Positions 1,276 to 31,528 of a DNA stretch of 64,000 bases are shown piece by piece. The number at the start of each line of letters is the position of its first letter. Positions within the stretch are counted from its first letter, which is position 1. Location: the NCBI RefSeq assembly GCF_003269425.1, contig NZ_CP030104.1, forward strand, positions 987,501 through 1,051,500, written 5' to 3'. A program made the translations under genes and the position numbers. This stretch comes from Flagellimonas maritima. Its GTDB lineage: Bacteria > Bacteroidota > Bacteroidia > Flavobacteriales > Flavobacteriaceae. The notes under the pieces are model-generated. The model saw only the letters and a list, made by a program, of their open reading frames with translations. It searched no databases and was not told the origin of the DNA.

Positions 1276-1421
1276 GTTTCAGTTGTCGGTCGTCAGTCGA
1301 TAGCCGTCAGTACCAACCATAACCCTACTCCTATTCTTAACGTGAACGCTAACTCCCAGAATTTCCAATATTTTTTTTTAAAGAACTTCGTACTTCCGTA
1401 TTTCAAACTTCGTACCTCCCG

Positions 1422-1437
1422 TAGTCTCAAACAGACT
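1422..1437 (-). repeat. Degenerate copy of the tRNA-Ile 3' acceptor end
   Basis: Sixteen bases here match the 3' end of tRNA-Ile (1485-1500) at 14 positions. On the minus strand this places a second TGAGACTA acceptor-like 3' arm 47 bases downstream of the tRNA. The surrounding 1385-1420 is itself made of short related stretches (CTTCGTAC, CTTCCGTA, CTTCGTACC). The likely origin is a local duplication or recombination scar; function unknown. Confidence 0.5.
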
Positions 1438-1484
1438 TACCCCGACTGCGCTCGGCACAGGCTTCTCGCCAGCCTTTCGACCTG

Positions 1485-1558
1485 TAGTCTCAGGCAGACT
1501 CGAACTGCCGACCTCTACATTATCAGTGTAGCGCTCTAACCAGCTGAGCTATGAGACT
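1485..1558 (-). tRNA. tRNA-Ile (anticodon GAT)
   Basis: The minus-strand sequence forms a full cloverleaf: acceptor AGTCTCA pairs perfectly with TGAGACT, D arm AGCTCAGCTGG, anticodon loop CTGATAA (anticodon GAU), T arm GGCAG-TTCGAGT-CTGCC, discriminator A, and no encoded CCA. It is the first tRNA of the 16S-23S spacer, followed by tRNA-Ala, the standard bacterial arrangement. Confidence 0.97.
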
Positions 1559-1647
1559 CTTTGGTGAACATATTATAAGACAGCATAAAAGATGAACAAG
1601 GACCGTTCCGATGGGGGGACGGGACATTGTCCGGTCGTCTCTTCTCT

Positions 1648-3171
<1,524 letters not shown>

Positions 3172-3475
3172 CTATCGTTAAATATCTATCCAACTACCTT
3201 GGACAATGACCGAGTCCCCCGCATCAAAATGGTTCCTTGTGTTCTCTTTTACGCTGTCTATACAATATGTCAAATGAACTTCTTGAATCCGAAAAAGAAA
3301 AAAACAGCCCCGAAACGGGACCTATCTACCCTCTTACAGCGCCCAACCTTATCAGCTAAGCGGGTGCAAATATAAACAGGTTATTTCTTCTCCGCAAATA
3401 GTTTTGACTTAATTTTATCCAAAAAAGAAAAGAAAATTGTAAGGTGCTGTTTTCCAGTTACAAATTGAAAAAACT
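3172..3475. other. rRNA leader and promoter region
   Basis: This gene-free stretch separates the 16S 5' end from the stop codon of the porin gene. It holds the rRNA promoter at 3367-3397 and about 190 bases of transcribed leader. On the minus strand directly after the porin stop, TTGTAA...TTACAA (about 3439-3466) followed by several T runs could be a weak porin terminator; this is AT-rich and uncertain. Confidence 0.6.
3367..3397 (-). promoter_or_regulatory. Candidate rRNA operon promoter (TTG / TATATTTG)
   Basis: On the minus strand TTG at 3397-3395 is followed, after a 20-base spacer, by TATATTTG at 3374-3367. This matches the known Bacteroidota primary sigma factor consensus (-33 TTG, -7 TAnnTTTG) in both elements. 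It lies about 195 bases upstream of mature 16S, a plausible leader length. The start site is inferred to be near 3360. Confidence 0.65.
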
Positions 3476-5461
3476 TCAAGAAAAGAAATTCCAGACCAAT
3501 CCAAAACGTATGACAAAGTCGCGGTAAGGATAATTAGGTGCTGCATAAAAATTTGGTTCTGAAAAAGAAGAATTGAAGTGTTCTGCCTTTAAGTATATTC
3601 TTGTCTGCCTAACTTTCGCGTTAATAAAAAAATCCATCATTGGAAAGCCGCCAAATTCTTCTCTATTTTGCGTATAAAACTCACTTAATAGCGGGTTATA
3701 AGCATTCATATTATAGGATGTAAAATATTTAAGGGTAACCCCTGTTTGCAAGAACATCGCTTTTTTGAAAGCATCCGTTGAGAAGTAAAGCGTATTTCTT
3801 GTTACGACTTGAGGAACATTAAGCACTTGGGTATCCTGGGTAACATCTTGATAGAGAACTGTATTGGCTAAAGCCCATTTTCTCCACTTGAACTCCTTAA
3901 AATATTTAATCCGTAGGTGATTAATAGTGGAAGTCTCTTGAATAGGTTTCACGAAAGCGGTTTCAAGACCGTTATCTATTTCTTCTTGTTCGGCCTCTGA
4001 TGACGCGAAGTATGTATAATTGTCAATTGCACTGTATTCAGCTTTTATATTTCCAAAAAAAAATGAGTCAAAACCAAACGCTATATTTTGTATCTGTTGT
4101 TTTTCAAAATTATCCGTATTCTGCCAATTAAAATTCTCGTAATCACTCTGGTATAATAAGTAATTGAAGTTAGGCATCCGTGAAGATGCATTAATCGAAC
4201 CAAAAAATAGATTGTTCTTGTTTATTATATACTGTACAGAAGTGTTGAAAGTATTCCCTGTAAGTTCTCCTAAAATGTTATAGTTAATGCTACCATCTAA
4301 TTTTAAACGTCCTAAATCCTTTGAATAGGTCCCTCCGATAGCAATTTCCTCTCCTTTCAATTGATTCCCTATAATCCCTTCATCCGTAACTAAAATGCTA
4401 TTAAAGAAATAATTATAATTATAGAGACTTGCATTCCCAGAAATCTTCCCTAAAACTCTATTTGAAAATTCTATACTTAGCTTATTAAACATTGTTTTTA
4501 GACGAGCTCTATCATCTATTGGTTCTGAAAAGACATCTTCTCCAAAAGCATTATTCTGCTCTGTTTGCGTAAATTGATAATATTTAGTTTCATAATTGAA
4601 TTCATGGCCAATCACTAACGCTGTAGGTTTTTTACTGGTCGAATCTTTCTTATAATTAAATAATTTAAACTGTTGATCCAAAAAATACCGTCTTCCTTGA
4701 ACTCTATTAGTAGCGTCCGTATATAATACGTCTATTCTAAACCTATCTTCAAAGTCAGGTGTTCCTCCTTCAAATTGCGCACGATCCTCTAATCCGCCAT
4801 TTTCTTCAGATTCAATGTCTTGAGCAGTAATATGACCCCTTACTATGTATTTTTTATTATTGGTAGTGTAATTGAAAGTTGTTCTGAAATTTCCAGATTG
4901 CGCTTGATTAAATCGATATTTACCTAATGACCTGAATCCTTTGTAAGCAATTGATGCATTAAACCCTTTATTAATGTTGAAAGTTAGAAGAGCATCTAAA
5001 AGCTGACCTTGTTCCAAAGTAGTCTTGAACATTAGTTCTGTCATTGGGGTTGGAACATGATAATAATCAATATCCTCAACCTCCATATAATTAAAGTGTT
5101 TTGTCAGTGCACCTAGTTGAGGATAGAAAGTATTCTCTGAAAATGTTCTACCGAGGGAATTATAAGGCTGACCGATATTTGCGAAAGGCATTAACTCAAA
5201 ATCGTCTTTTCTGAGGTAATTATATTTATATTCTTTTTTAATTGTAAGCGTAGTGTCCAAAACAATGGTATCTCGACTATAAGAAATAATCTTATAGTCC
5301 GAGATTAACACTGAATCTTTTTCTATTGCTTCTTTACTTTTTAAAACTTTTGGACCGTTTTGTCCAACGGTATCTATCTGTTGTACTGGAGGCAGCGAGT
5401 CTTGCTGAGCGAAAACAGAAAGCCTCACTAAAAGAAGAAGTGCAATACAAAAAAATCTCAT
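3476..5461 (-). CDS. Putative outer-membrane porin
   Basis: A 661-residue protein with an N-terminal signal peptide (about residues 1-18, ending VFA-Q) and a long sequence rich in alternating polar/aromatic residues, ending in the aromatic strand VWNFFS, as expected for an outer-membrane beta-barrel. Length, the SDYKI.SYSRDTIVLDTTL opening and the repeated 'FNYTTNNKKY', 'YNYNYFFN' type strands resemble the Bacteroidota 'putative porin' family; substrate is unknown. It is transcribed alone, towards the rRNA operon, and is separated from the upstream SusC/D operon by a strong terminator. A TACCTTTG box lies just upstream of its start. The family call is from memory; an outer-membrane barrel location is more certain than channel function. 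Confidence 0.72.
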   Translation of the reverse strand: MRFFCIALLLLVRLSVFAQQDSLPPVQQIDTVGQNGPKVLKSKEAIEKDSVLISDYKIISYSRDTIVLDTTLTIKKEYKYNYLRKDDFELMPFANIGQPYNSLGRTFSENTFYPQLGALTKHFNYMEVEDIDYYHVPTPMTELMFKTTLEQGQLLDALLTFNINKGFNASIAYKGFRSLGKYRFNQAQSGNFRTTFNYTTNNKKYIVRGHITAQDIESEENGGLEDRAQFEGGTPDFEDRFRIDVLYTDATNRVQGRRYFLDQQFKLFNYKKDSTSKKPTALVIGHEFNYETKYYQFTQTEQNNAFGEDVFSEPIDDRARLKTMFNKLSIEFSNRVLGKISGNASLYNYNYFFNSILVTDEGIIGNQLKGEEIAIGGTYSKDLGRLKLDGSINYNILGELTGNTFNTSVQYIINKNNLFFGSINASSRMPNFNYLLYQSDYENFNWQNTDNFEKQQIQNIAFGFDSFFFGNIKAEYSAIDNYTYFASSEAEQEEIDNGLETAFVKPIQETSTINHLRIKYFKEFKWRKWALANTVLYQDVTQDTQVLNVPQVVTRNTLYFSTDAFKKAMFLQTGVTLKYFTSYNMNAYNPLLSEFYTQNREEFGGFPMMDFFINAKVRQTRIYLKAEHFNSSFSEPNFYAAPNYPYRDFVIRFGLVWNFFS

Positions 5462-28162: not shown

Positions 28163-28978
28163 ATGAAGACACAATTTATAATATTCATCCTAACCACCTT
28201 GTTTGTTTTTTCTCTTGGCACGGCCCAAGAAAATTACCACTGCGTTTGGAACGAGTGTGATTTTAAAGCTGGCGACAAAGTATATATGTTCGGGAATAAT
28301 GTGAAATTACGTACCGCGCCGGACACCAAATCCAAAACCCTTGAACTTTTGAAAATAGGCGAATGGGTCACAATCATTGAGAAAACAGACTTCTCTTGGC
28401 CCTACAAAGGTTTTGATTCTCCTTTTTACAAAGTAAAGTATGATGATATGACAGGTTATATTCTTGGCGGTCTATTCTCTTTGGAAAGGAAAACCCTCAA
28501 TGGAACAAATTATTTTTTTGCATATTCCAAAGAAGGTGAAAAGACTTTTTTGGATATCAGGCATATAAAGAATGGTGATTATATTGAAAACAGAGTACAG
28601 TTGGCGAATTCGGGCATAAGCATCAAGACTATGAATCCTATGGGATTAGAAAATCTGAACGGAATTCTTTATATCGATTATCATTCTGAAGCCTGTGGTG
28701 TGGAAGGTGGCGGAGTTTATTTTTTTGCACACGACGATGGATTATTCAAGGCTGCTGAACTATCTGAAATCTCAGAAGCCGGGGTTTATTATTACACCGA
28801 AAAATTTATTTTTCCTGATAACGAAAATGGTATTCCCGGAAAGATAGTCTTCAAAAAAAAAATAGGCGAGATTTACGATGAAACTTCCAATTGGACCAAA
28901 ACATCTTTCGAGGAAAGGGAACTGAGTTGGGTAGACGGAAAATTGATTCCAGAACTTAGGGAGAAAATTTCCAATTAG
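28163..28978 (+). CDS. Exported protein with bacterial SH3-like domain
   Basis: A 271-residue protein from the ATG at 28163, which begins a proper signal peptide (MKTQFIIFILTTLFVFSLGTAQ). An SH3b-like domain lies at about 35-115: the VKLRTAPDTKSKTLELLKIGEWVTIIEK and YDDMTGYILGGLF strands are typical. The remainder is beta-rich with no motif recognised. SH3b domains usually bind the cell wall. It is probably periplasmic; function unknown. Confidence 0.8.
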   Translation: MKTQFIIFILTTLFVFSLGTAQENYHCVWNECDFKAGDKVYMFGNNVKLRTAPDTKSKTLELLKIGEWVTIIEKTDFSWPYKGFDSPFYKVKYDDMTGYILGGLFSLERKTLNGTNYFFAYSKEGEKTFLDIRHIKNGDYIENRVQLANSGISIKTMNPMGLENLNGILYIDYHSEACGVEGGGVYFFAHDDGLFKAAELSEISEAGVYYYTEKFIFPDNENGIPGKIVFKKKIGEIYDETSNWTKTSFEERELSWVDGKLIPELREKISN

Positions 28979-29015
28979 AAAATAGAAAAGAGCTTGAAAT
29001 ACTTCGCTCATTTCA

Positions 29016-29120
29016 ATATCGGTGATTTTAACGATATTCTTAATTATCGGTTATTTTGCCGATATTTTTAATTATCGGTTATTTTGCCGATATTCTTAAT
29101 TATCGGTTATTTTGCCGATA
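29016..29120. promoter_or_regulatory. Four evenly spaced palindromic operators upstream of the satD-like gene
   Basis: Three copies of the 20-bp palindrome TATCGGTTATTTTGCCGATA start at 29045, 29073 and 29101, and a degenerate fourth (TATCGG..ACGATA) starts at 29017, so the period is exactly 28 bp. Each half is TATCGG/CCGATA with an eight-base spacer. The last copy ends ten bases before the ATG at 29130. The neighbouring protein has a helix-turn-helix, so autoregulation is likely. Confidence 0.8.
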
Positions 29121-29129
29121 TTTGTAGCA

Positions 29130-29738
29130 ATGAATGCTACAATTTCAATCATAACTGGAGATATAATCGATTCACGGAAGGTGAAACCGGAAACTTGGTT
29201 GCCTGATTTAAAAAAGATTTTAGATGCGTATGGCAAGGAACCTACAAATTGGGAGGTTTATCGTGGGGATAGCTTTCAGTTGGAAGTTTCTCCAGAAATA
29301 GTCTTGGAGGCTGCAATCCATATAAAAGCAACCTTAAAGCAAAAAAAAGGATTGGACGTTAGAATGGGTATTGGACTAGGTAAAAAGGACTATGATTCAG
29401 AGAAAATTACCGAATCCAATGGTTCGGCATTCGTTTATTCCGGTGAATGCTTTGAAAATCTAAAAAAACAGACCTTGGCACTAAAATCGAGCATGACATC
29501 GTTCGATAATACGATCAACCTAATGCTAGAGCTGGCCGCTTTGACAATGGATAATTGGCTGCCGGCTACCTCAAGAGTCGTAAAAACTGCCTTGGAAAAT
29601 CCCGAAGCCAATCAAAAAGAGTTGGCAGCATTGCTGGAAACGACCCAGAGCAATATTAGTGAAGCATTGTTAAGGGCAGGGTTTGAAGAAGTTCAAAAAC
29701 TAATCCAATTTTATAAAGCCCAATTAACACGAACATGA
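29130..29738 (+). CDS. SatD-like protein with C-terminal helix-turn-helix
   Basis: A 202-residue cytoplasmic protein from the ATG at 29130; an upstream TTG at 29112 would start inside the last operator. The N-terminal 150 residues (ISIITGDIIDSRKVKPETWLPDLKKILD, YRGDSFQLEV, IGLGKKDY, SNGSAFVYSGECFENLKKQ) resemble SatD/cyclase-like proteins. The C-terminal ~50 residues (ANQKELAALLETTQSNISEALLRAGFEEVQKLIQFY) form a helix-turn-helix of XRE/MarR-like type. It overlaps the downstream DUF3307 gene by ATGA. The SatD-DUF3307 pair is a known Bacteroidota combination; the role is unknown, but the operator array suggests it represses its own operon. Confidence 0.8.
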   Translation: MNATISIITGDIIDSRKVKPETWLPDLKKILDAYGKEPTNWEVYRGDSFQLEVSPEIVLEAAIHIKATLKQKKGLDVRMGIGLGKKDYDSEKITESNGSAFVYSGECFENLKKQTLALKSSMTSFDNTINLMLELAALTMDNWLPATSRVVKTALENPEANQKELAALLETTQSNISEALLRAGFEEVQKLIQFYKAQLTRT

Positions 29739-30460
29739 CCTTATTTGCACTTAAATTGATATTGGCCCATTTTCTGGGCGATTTTGTATTTCAGCCCAAA
29801 CATTGGGTGGACGATAAATTGGAAAAAAAAGCAAAGTCCAAGTATCTCTACTGGCATATGGCAATACATCTTACCGCACTTATTTTGCTGCTACAGTTTC
29901 AGTACTTAGGGCAAATTCTTATCATTATCATAAGCCATTATCTCATCGATTTAGCAAAACTGGCATTTACAAATGCCAAAAATTACAGATGGCTATTCGT
30001 TTTAGACCAATTACTACATCTTTTGGTGATTGCGATTTTGGTATACTGGGTGAGCCCGTATACGATTGAACTTGAAACGCTTATCAATAAAGAAAACCTT
30101 CTTTTGGTCACTTTTTTGGTCTTTGTAACGTATGTTTCGGGAATAGTCATGCGGATGTTGCTCGCACCATATATCAACGAAATTGCCAATGAAGAAATCA
30201 ATGAAGAAGGAGGTTCCCTAAAAAATGCAGGAACATATATTGGTATTTTAGAACGACTTTTTGTTTTTGGGTTTATCTTACTTAACCAATGGGCATCCAT
30301 AGGTCTTTTAATAACGGCCAAATCCGTTTTTAGGTTTGGGGACCTTAATAAGGGGAAAAATAGAAAATTGACGGAGTATGTGCTTATTGGAACTTTATTA
30401 AGCTTTGGTTTGGCGATTTTATCAGGTATGCTTTATAAATATTTAGTTGTTTTGATCTAG
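29735..30460 (+). CDS. DUF3307 multi-pass membrane protein
   Basis: A 241-residue inner-membrane protein with about six hydrophobic helices. The start 'LALKLILAHFLGDFVFQPKHWVDDKLEKKAKS' is the DUF3307 signature, with conserved HFLGDF and a charged loop, then ISHYLIDLAKL and YRWLFVLDQLLHLLVIA. It overlaps the SatD-like gene by four bases and the convergent gene at 30457 by four. Function unknown. Confidence 0.88.
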   Translation: MTLFALKLILAHFLGDFVFQPKHWVDDKLEKKAKSKYLYWHMAIHLTALILLLQFQYLGQILIIIISHYLIDLAKLAFTNAKNYRWLFVLDQLLHLLVIAILVYWVSPYTIELETLINKENLLLVTFLVFVTYVSGIVMRMLLAPYINEIANEEINEEGGSLKNAGTYIGILERLFVFGFILLNQWASIGLLITAKSVFRFGDLNKGKNRKLTEYVLIGTLLSFGLAILSGMLYKYLVVLI

Positions 30461-30973: not shown

Positions 30974-31528
30974 TTATAAAATTTTGGCCTCGTTCAAAAT
31001 TTCCATTGATGATAAAACCTCATCAACAGCATTTGTCATCGATTTTGCTGAAATCGTTGCACCTGCAATCGCATCCACATCCTCACCATACGTAACACTG
31101 TCCCCGGATTTTTTGCCGATAAACTGCTTCAACCAACGCTGGCTCCCGATTTGTCTGCCATAATCTTCCCTATAGATAAGCACTTTGGATTTTTTGATGC
31201 TCAGGTCAGGATTAAAAAGAACCACGTAGTCAAATACATTTTTCATACTTGGCGCCTCCCCTAAATAGGCATAGCCGATAAATTCATCACCTTTAATAAT
31301 CCTGAAGAGGTTTTCTTGACCCAGTTCAACAGTTGTTTTGGTATTAATAGTTTCAGCTACAGCTACGTGCTGAAGCTCAAAAGCTTCCACTTCAAAAGTA
31401 GATTGTACAGCGTTGTTCAATTTTTCCTGAAGTCGTGGAGAGATTTTTTCTAGCGAAAATCCCAAAAATAAAAAAGCCATGCAAAGCATGGCCATTATTA
31501 TTAAACTCGACTTACTTTCCAGCTTCAC
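30974..31528 (-). CDS. FMN-binding domain protein
   Basis: A 184-residue exported or membrane-anchored protein. It starts with GTG at 31528, inside the last codons of the DUF6607 gene, giving a 17-base overlap and a proper N-terminal signal (KLESKSSLIIMAMLCMAFLFLGF). The FMN_bind domain covers about 60-180, and the flavin site is the segment DAIAGATISAKS with Thr158 as the covalent FMN attachment residue (ApbE type). Such domains carry electrons in the periplasm. Between the DUF6607 and the four-helix protein it fits a redox module, perhaps for iron release. Confidence 0.85.
   Translation of the reverse strand: MKLESKSSLIIMAMLCMAFLFLGFSLEKISPRLQEKLNNAVQSTFEVEAFELQHVAVAETINTKTTVELGQENLFRIIKGDEFIGYAYLGEAPSMKNVFDYVVLFNPDLSIKKSKVLIYREDYGRQIGSQRWLKQFIGKKSGDSVTYGEDVDAIAGATISAKSMTNAVDEVLSSMEILNEAKIL
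31464..31492 (-). terminator. Terminator-like hairpin inside the FMN-binding gene
   Basis: The minus strand reads GCCATGC-TTT-GCATGGC followed by TTTTTTATTTTT. It sits 20 bases after the DUF6607 stop codon but within the signal-peptide codons of the FMN-binding gene. It may act as a partial terminator, lowering expression of the downstream genes, or may be a chance result of the coding sequence. Confidence 0.5.

Follow-up and report, generated by a model that had tools for sequence, protein, structure and literature searches.

Four phased palindromes before a SatD-like gene of Flagellimonas maritima: a likely operator of a one-component autoregulator

The window analysed here, 64,000 nt of Flagellimonas maritima DNA (contig NZ_CP030104.1, nt 987,501 to 1,051,500), contains a gene for a SatD-like protein with a C-terminal helix-turn-helix (HTH), preceded by four phased palindromes and followed by a gene for a DUF3307 protein. 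It is very likely that the four palindromes serve as operator for the SatD-like protein itself, a one-component autoregulator that would repress its own operon, including the DUF3307 gene, and respond to a ligand. Computation gives strong support for the designations operator and autoregulator. The array, its fixed geometry, its covariation with the recognition helix, the register of a promoter -7 box, the operon structure and the predicted fold are likewise supported by computation, and we infer the binding, the sign of regulation, the cooperativity and the ligand. The features of the locus are as follows.

29017-29036, no strand: operator unit 1, the degenerate copy TATCGGTGATTTTAACGATA, which departs from TATCGG-N8-CCGATA at one position
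29045-29064, no strand: operator unit 2, TATCGG-N8-CCGATA, TATCGGTTATTTTGCCGATA
29073-29092, no strand: operator unit 3, TATCGGTTATTTTGCCGATA
29101-29120, no strand: operator unit 4, TATCGGTTATTTTGCCGATA, right arm overlapping the putative -7 box
29117-29124, plus strand: putative -7 box of the promoter, GATATTTG, which differs from TAnnTTTG at one position and is separated from the ATG by 5 bp
29130-29738, plus strand: SatD-like regulator, 202 amino acids
29130-29498, plus strand: predicted N-terminal nucleotidyl-cyclase-fold domain, residues about 1 to 123, with D11 and D47
29613-29678, plus strand: HTH, residues 162 to 183, recognition helix from 173; columns 172 to 179 covary with the operator arms
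29735-30460, plus strand: DUF3307 protein, 241 amino acids, probably membrane-bound; 4-bp overlap with the regulator gene

Reading of the sequence confirmed the initial annotation, which had described four 28-bp-phased palindromes, three perfect and one degenerate, before the start codon; the gene content it gave, a SatD-like protein with a C-terminal HTH and then DUF3307, was borne out by profile search and the list of open reading frames (ORFs). That list starts the SatD-like gene at TTG 29112, and ATG 29130 is backed by close homologues. Each palindrome spans 20 bp, the period is exactly 28 bp, and the array ends at nt 29120, 9 bp before the ATG. Half-sites recur every 14 bp in alternating orientation, with an 8-bp spacer both within and between palindromes, and the arms are TATCGG throughout except for one degenerate arm in unit 1. 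With up to 2 mismatches, the 64-kb window held 6 matches where 1.18 were expected; four of the 6 were the array, and none of 100 shuffles reached 6. In the whole 3.77-Mb genome, the only perfect copies of TATCGG-N8-CCGATA were the three in the array, and a search for two units in tandem, allowing 3 mismatches, gave no match beyond this locus. Single units with up to 2 mismatches numbered 164 genome-wide, array included, versus 139 in the reversed control; since these counts are near background, a wider regulon is not visible, and the regulator appears to be confined to a single locus.

Homologous loci were collected in two sets. The first comprised 145 SatD-homologue loci (39 from genome contigs, 30 from a family search, the window's own included, and 76 further rows), and the second 66 loci from class and phylum searches, some of which duplicate first-set loci. 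SatD homologues were present in 107 of 199, 27 of 198 and 53 of 198 genomes of the family, class and phylum searches, respectively, these samples overlapping and including the window's own genome. At lag 28, the 139 distinct 150-bp upstream sequences of the first set had a self-identity of 0.496, versus 0.325 in dinucleotide shuffles (z 43); lag 56 gave z 35, and lag 28 was the best of lags 20 to 45 in 116 of the 139. A scan of unit length by period had a sharp maximum at unit 20, period 28. A template-free detector, which was given no letters, allowed periods of 22 to 35 and had its threshold above 99% of shuffles, found an array in 155 of 194 distinct upstream sequences (122/139 in the first set, 33/55 in the second); the controls gave 0/194 inside the gene, 1/193 further upstream and 0/193 after the gene. 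The period was 28 in 130 of the 155 arrays and 29 in the other 25, and relatives mostly carry three to five palindromes, compared with four in the window. The remaining 39 of the 194 fell below the threshold, some lineages keeping both genes without a detectable array. Loci L201 and L203 to L209, all of one family of the phylum (f73), have paired SatD and DUF3307 genes with no array detectable upstream.

The initial annotation had proposed that a lack of palindromes in homologous operons would speak against an operator, and with arrays before 155 of 194 genes the operator reading survived that comparison. The same palindrome had been expected elsewhere; the geometry is indeed conserved, but the letters differ and are rewritten together with the recognition helix. 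Letter changes that track the helix are better evidence of autoregulation than plain conservation.

The arms are TATCGG in the closest relatives of the window's locus and elsewhere TATCTG, TATTAG, TATAAG, TATTCC, TATCAC, TATATG, TATTAC and others. Covariation was measured in 121 sequences of less than 80% identity. Of 199 protein columns, the five with the highest excess mutual information with the arm triplet were 178, 172, 175, 179 and 174, all in or immediately before the recognition helix (173 to 183 in the structure model). A template-free repeat with 138 sequences, the second set included, was led by columns 178, 175, 174 and 172; columns 106 and 107, outside the helix, ranked next. Glu178 was paired with CGG, CTG or CGT in 32/35 cases, Gln178 with TAG, AAG or TAT in 38/39, and Lys178 with TCC in 9/18.

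This covariation is not accounted for by relatedness, on two grounds. At equal distance of the N-terminal domain, the mean operator distance was 0.21 to 0.50 between proteins with the same residue 178 and 0.48 to 0.72 between those with different ones, the latter being higher in each bin that held both kinds of pair. With N-domain distance held constant, operator and helix had a partial correlation of 0.45, whereas 300 control column sets averaged 0.05 and reached at most 0.27; for operator and N-domain, given the helix, the value was about 0. A stricter tree test, which had no more than 3 or 4 independent and well-supported pairs for each contrast, was underpowered for significance; on average 2.6/3, 2.7/3, 1.5/3 and 3.7/4 pairs changed in the expected direction and about none in the opposite one, and three control columns seen in the output were mixed. 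Judged by the arm-helix covariation, the promoter carries SatD's own operator, and SatD would very probably bind there.

A further case is provided by one genus (g128, that of locus L184), in which 68 of 150 genomes have a SatD homologue and the best 30 loci were read. At least two units were present in 26 of these, one in L235 and none in L241, while L219 and L242 offered just 54 and 49 bp of upstream sequence. Residue 173 is Arg in L184 and Gln in the other 29. Arm base 2, left free in the scan, is A in 156/156 half-sites of the Gln173 loci and G in 6/6 half-sites of the single Arg173 locus. Gln-adenine and Arg-guanine are standard protein-DNA contacts. In the wider set, five arrays go with a protein lacking Gln173 (Pro twice, Ala once, and Arg twice, L184 included), and all five lack the TAT anchor. 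Two SatD paralogues of another genome (L167 and L176 of G270) share the helix start SPQT and the arms ATCAAC; a DUF3307 gene lies downstream of one and none was found for the other, and cross-regulation between the two is possible.

Residue 177, Ser or Asn/His, tracks the period. A period of 29 was found with 21 of 23 proteins without Ser177 and with 5 of 133 with it, and the former are longer (median 217 versus 202 amino acids), both comparisons being uncorrected for relatedness; the link may thus reflect few events. In period-29 arrays (for example L135 to L148 except L140 and others with weak scores), the palindrome is still 20 bp and the extra base lies in the linker between palindromes.

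The sequence TAnnTTTG is described in excerpts of PMC9723704 as the -7 box of flavobacterial promoters, at -12 to -5 from the start site, and leaderless mRNAs are put there at 5.5% in the species studied. The octamer GATATTTG is identical at -13 or -12 from the ATG in all nine loci examined (the window's and L004 to L011). With the published spacing, transcription would start at the ATG or one base before it, giving a leaderless or nearly leaderless mRNA, so that the array would not be transcribed from this promoter. TAnnTTTG occurred within the last 60 bp in 55 of the 121 loci with at least two units at period 28, versus 8.2 in shuffles, and 50 of these 55 boxes occupied 4 of the 28 possible phases. 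Most of them share their TA with the end of an arm, and since the arms supply a TA, the phasing is partly built in. An operator unit encloses a TATATTTG box in 20 of the 30 g128 loci, for example TATTACTTATATTTGTAATA. The simplest reading of this overlap of box and array would be promoter occlusion.

The SatD-like protein scored 27.7 bits (E 2.5e-6) against the SatD profile PF16264, named after the Streptococcus mutans sat operon. This is just under the curated cut-off of 29 bits, and the protein is therefore named SatD-like; the label in the initial annotation needs that reservation, the gene being otherwise as described. In an alignment of 40 members (A1, the window protein included), 31 matched PF16264 at E<=0.01, and HTH profiles also matched, e.g. 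HTH_24 in 12/40 at E<=0.01; the HTH helices lie at residues 162 to 169 and 173 to 183 of the structure model. The N-terminal half of the predicted structure has the cyclase/palm fold common to class III nucleotidyl cyclases, GGDEF domains, the Cas10 palm and GTP cyclohydrolase III; unlike these, the SatD-like domain is fused to an HTH within 202 amino acids. Cyclic UMP synthase 7r65 was among the Foldseek rows at rank 33, a likeness of shared fold only. The aspartates of the putative metal site are conserved (D11 in 194 and D47 in 195 of 197 distinct loci), and in the structure model they lie at the strand and turn expected for the cyclase metal-site pair. Two orphan SatD homologues (L133 and L166) have lost both aspartates, DUF3307 and the array together. 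The earlier suggestion that the SatD domain may sense a nucleotide is consistent with the predicted cyclase fold.

The DUF3307 protein of the window matched PF11750 with 106.1 bits (cut-off 23) over residues 6 to 123, followed by a conserved C-terminal half, and all 37 downstream proteins chosen for a second alignment (A2) matched at E<=0.05. In 191 of the 197 distinct loci the gene directly downstream encodes DUF3307, and in 165 it is no more than 10 bp from the stop codon; L212, one of the six loci without it, has just 127 bp after the gene. The protein is helical in its model (predicted local distance difference test score 93.1) and is probably located in the membrane, a PHROG relative being labelled as a membrane protein. 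Among the 37 diverse sequences, 24 residues are invariant, including H12, D16, H41, H68, D72, D91 and H95, all seven in the N-terminal half, and this His/Asp pattern resembles a metal site. Comparison of the model with solved structures gave no convincing fold match. The pair was also compared with Pycsar (uridylate cyclase plus effector); PADLOC defence models at E<=0.1 matched neither the SatD-like nor the DUF3307 protein. Excerpts of PMC8504454 list DUF3307 in one phage genome table. The proposal that DUF3307 would be the regulated effector agrees with its gene position in the 191 loci.

In the proposed mechanism, a dimer of the SatD-like protein would sit on each 20-bp palindrome through its C-terminal HTH, Gln173 contacting the outer TAT and residues 172, 174, 175 and foremost 178 the inner three bases. 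Several dimers, four in the window, would line the promoter and cover the -7 box, silencing both the regulator gene and the DUF3307 gene that overlaps it. A ligand of nucleotide type, bound in the cyclase-fold domain, would most likely alter the dimer and so lift, or set, repression. Of the cooperative autorepressor named in the initial annotation, operator and autoregulator are thus strongly supported, repression is favoured by the overlap and phasing of the -7 box, and cooperativity is suggested by the array by itself.

The even half-site spacing of 14 bp led us to consider a bolder version, which we regard as improbable, in which SatD-DUF3307 is a signalling module whose cyclase-fold protein makes or binds a nucleotide signal while polymerising along the promoter. 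Half-sites would be filled every 14 bp in alternating orientation, three per four helical turns, and the nucleotide state would set the length of the filament and, through it, the expression of an intramembrane enzyme, DUF3307. The extra linker base of period-29 arrays, whose palindromes stay at 20 bp, speaks for separate dimers and against a filament.

It is likewise improbable that SatD, bound to the array, activates the promoter or switches between activation and repression. The covariation does not give the sign of regulation, and those units that precede the -7 box might bring in polymerase; however, boxes in register with the operator units, and at times inside them, suggest occlusion. 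Negative autoregulation is also the commoner kind, in general, when a second gene is tightly coupled to the regulator, which counts against activation. There is only a slim chance that the array acts as RNA, its leader hairpins on the SatD-DUF3307 mRNA serving as an attenuator or a protein-binding structure. The stretch folds strongly (-37.2 kcal/mol, z -6.67), though any palindrome array must, and the arm changes are compensatory; but the arms covary with a DNA-type recognition helix, the -7 box at or within the last units places most of the array upstream of the predicted start, and three Rfam matches in 28900-29300 were all far below their cut-offs. That a different regulator binds the array, with SatD merely downstream, is highly improbable: binding by SatD is a computational deduction, yet all five of the protein columns most predictive of the arms lie at SatD's own recognition helix, and the exchange of Gln173 for Arg173 is matched in 6/6 half-sites of the Arg locus.

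Outside Bacteroidota, a SatD-like gene lies directly before a DUF3307 gene in all four plasmid records examined, three of them from Pseudomonadota. The array detector found none above threshold at these four loci, and the tandem array may therefore be a Bacteroidota trait. Upstream of nt 1381 of an Enterobacter kobei plasmid (L245), about two TCAACC/GGTTGA palindromic stretches, but no array, were seen by eye, and the operator there may follow a different plan. On a Sphingomonas insulae plasmid (L246, nt 1354-3486), the pair adjoins opposite-strand genes annotated as a Pycsar system effector and an E2 domain-associated cysteine-rich protein; this single case is possibly a defence neighbourhood. 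In the window, an ORF on the minus strand (30974-31528) contains a DAIAGATISAKSM stretch, which we take to resemble the flavinylation motif of flavin mononucleotide-binding proteins.

Members of the LacI family have a sugar-sensor domain and typically one or a few operators. SatD differs from them in its predicted cyclase-fold sensor and in its tandem arrays, which mostly hold three to five palindromes at a fixed period of 28 or 29 bp, and the IclR family differs from SatD in fold and operator plan. Excerpts of PMC2978694 likewise read autoregulated LacI-family operators for a residue-base code (two residues, two bases), and those of PMC8222616 likewise describe protein-DNA co-evolution across the one IclR family. 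Both the approach and the notion of a code linking residues to bases are already known from LacI, while the combination of sensor and operator in SatD is new. SatD is annotated as an acid-tolerance protein in excerpts of PMC10326533, and the family carries the same annotation in those of PMC11323703, where satD of Streptococcus pyogenes is reported as essential in a transposon study yet accessory (178 of 249 genomes). By analogy, such a combination would be expected of a repressor of a harmful partner or of an antitoxin-like gene. No operator or DNA-binding role for SatD was found in the literature searched, in agreement with the remark in the initial annotation that none had been described for this family.

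So far labelled chiefly by acid tolerance, the family thus gains a testable role, that of an autoregulator, together with a predicted fold for its sensor and a partner that it would regulate. Its loci form a natural series in which geometry is nearly fixed over much of the phylum, whereas the letters change along with a handful of residues. This series is useful as a data set on the joint change of regulator and operator, and might yield orthogonal repressor-operator pairs for Bacteroidota.
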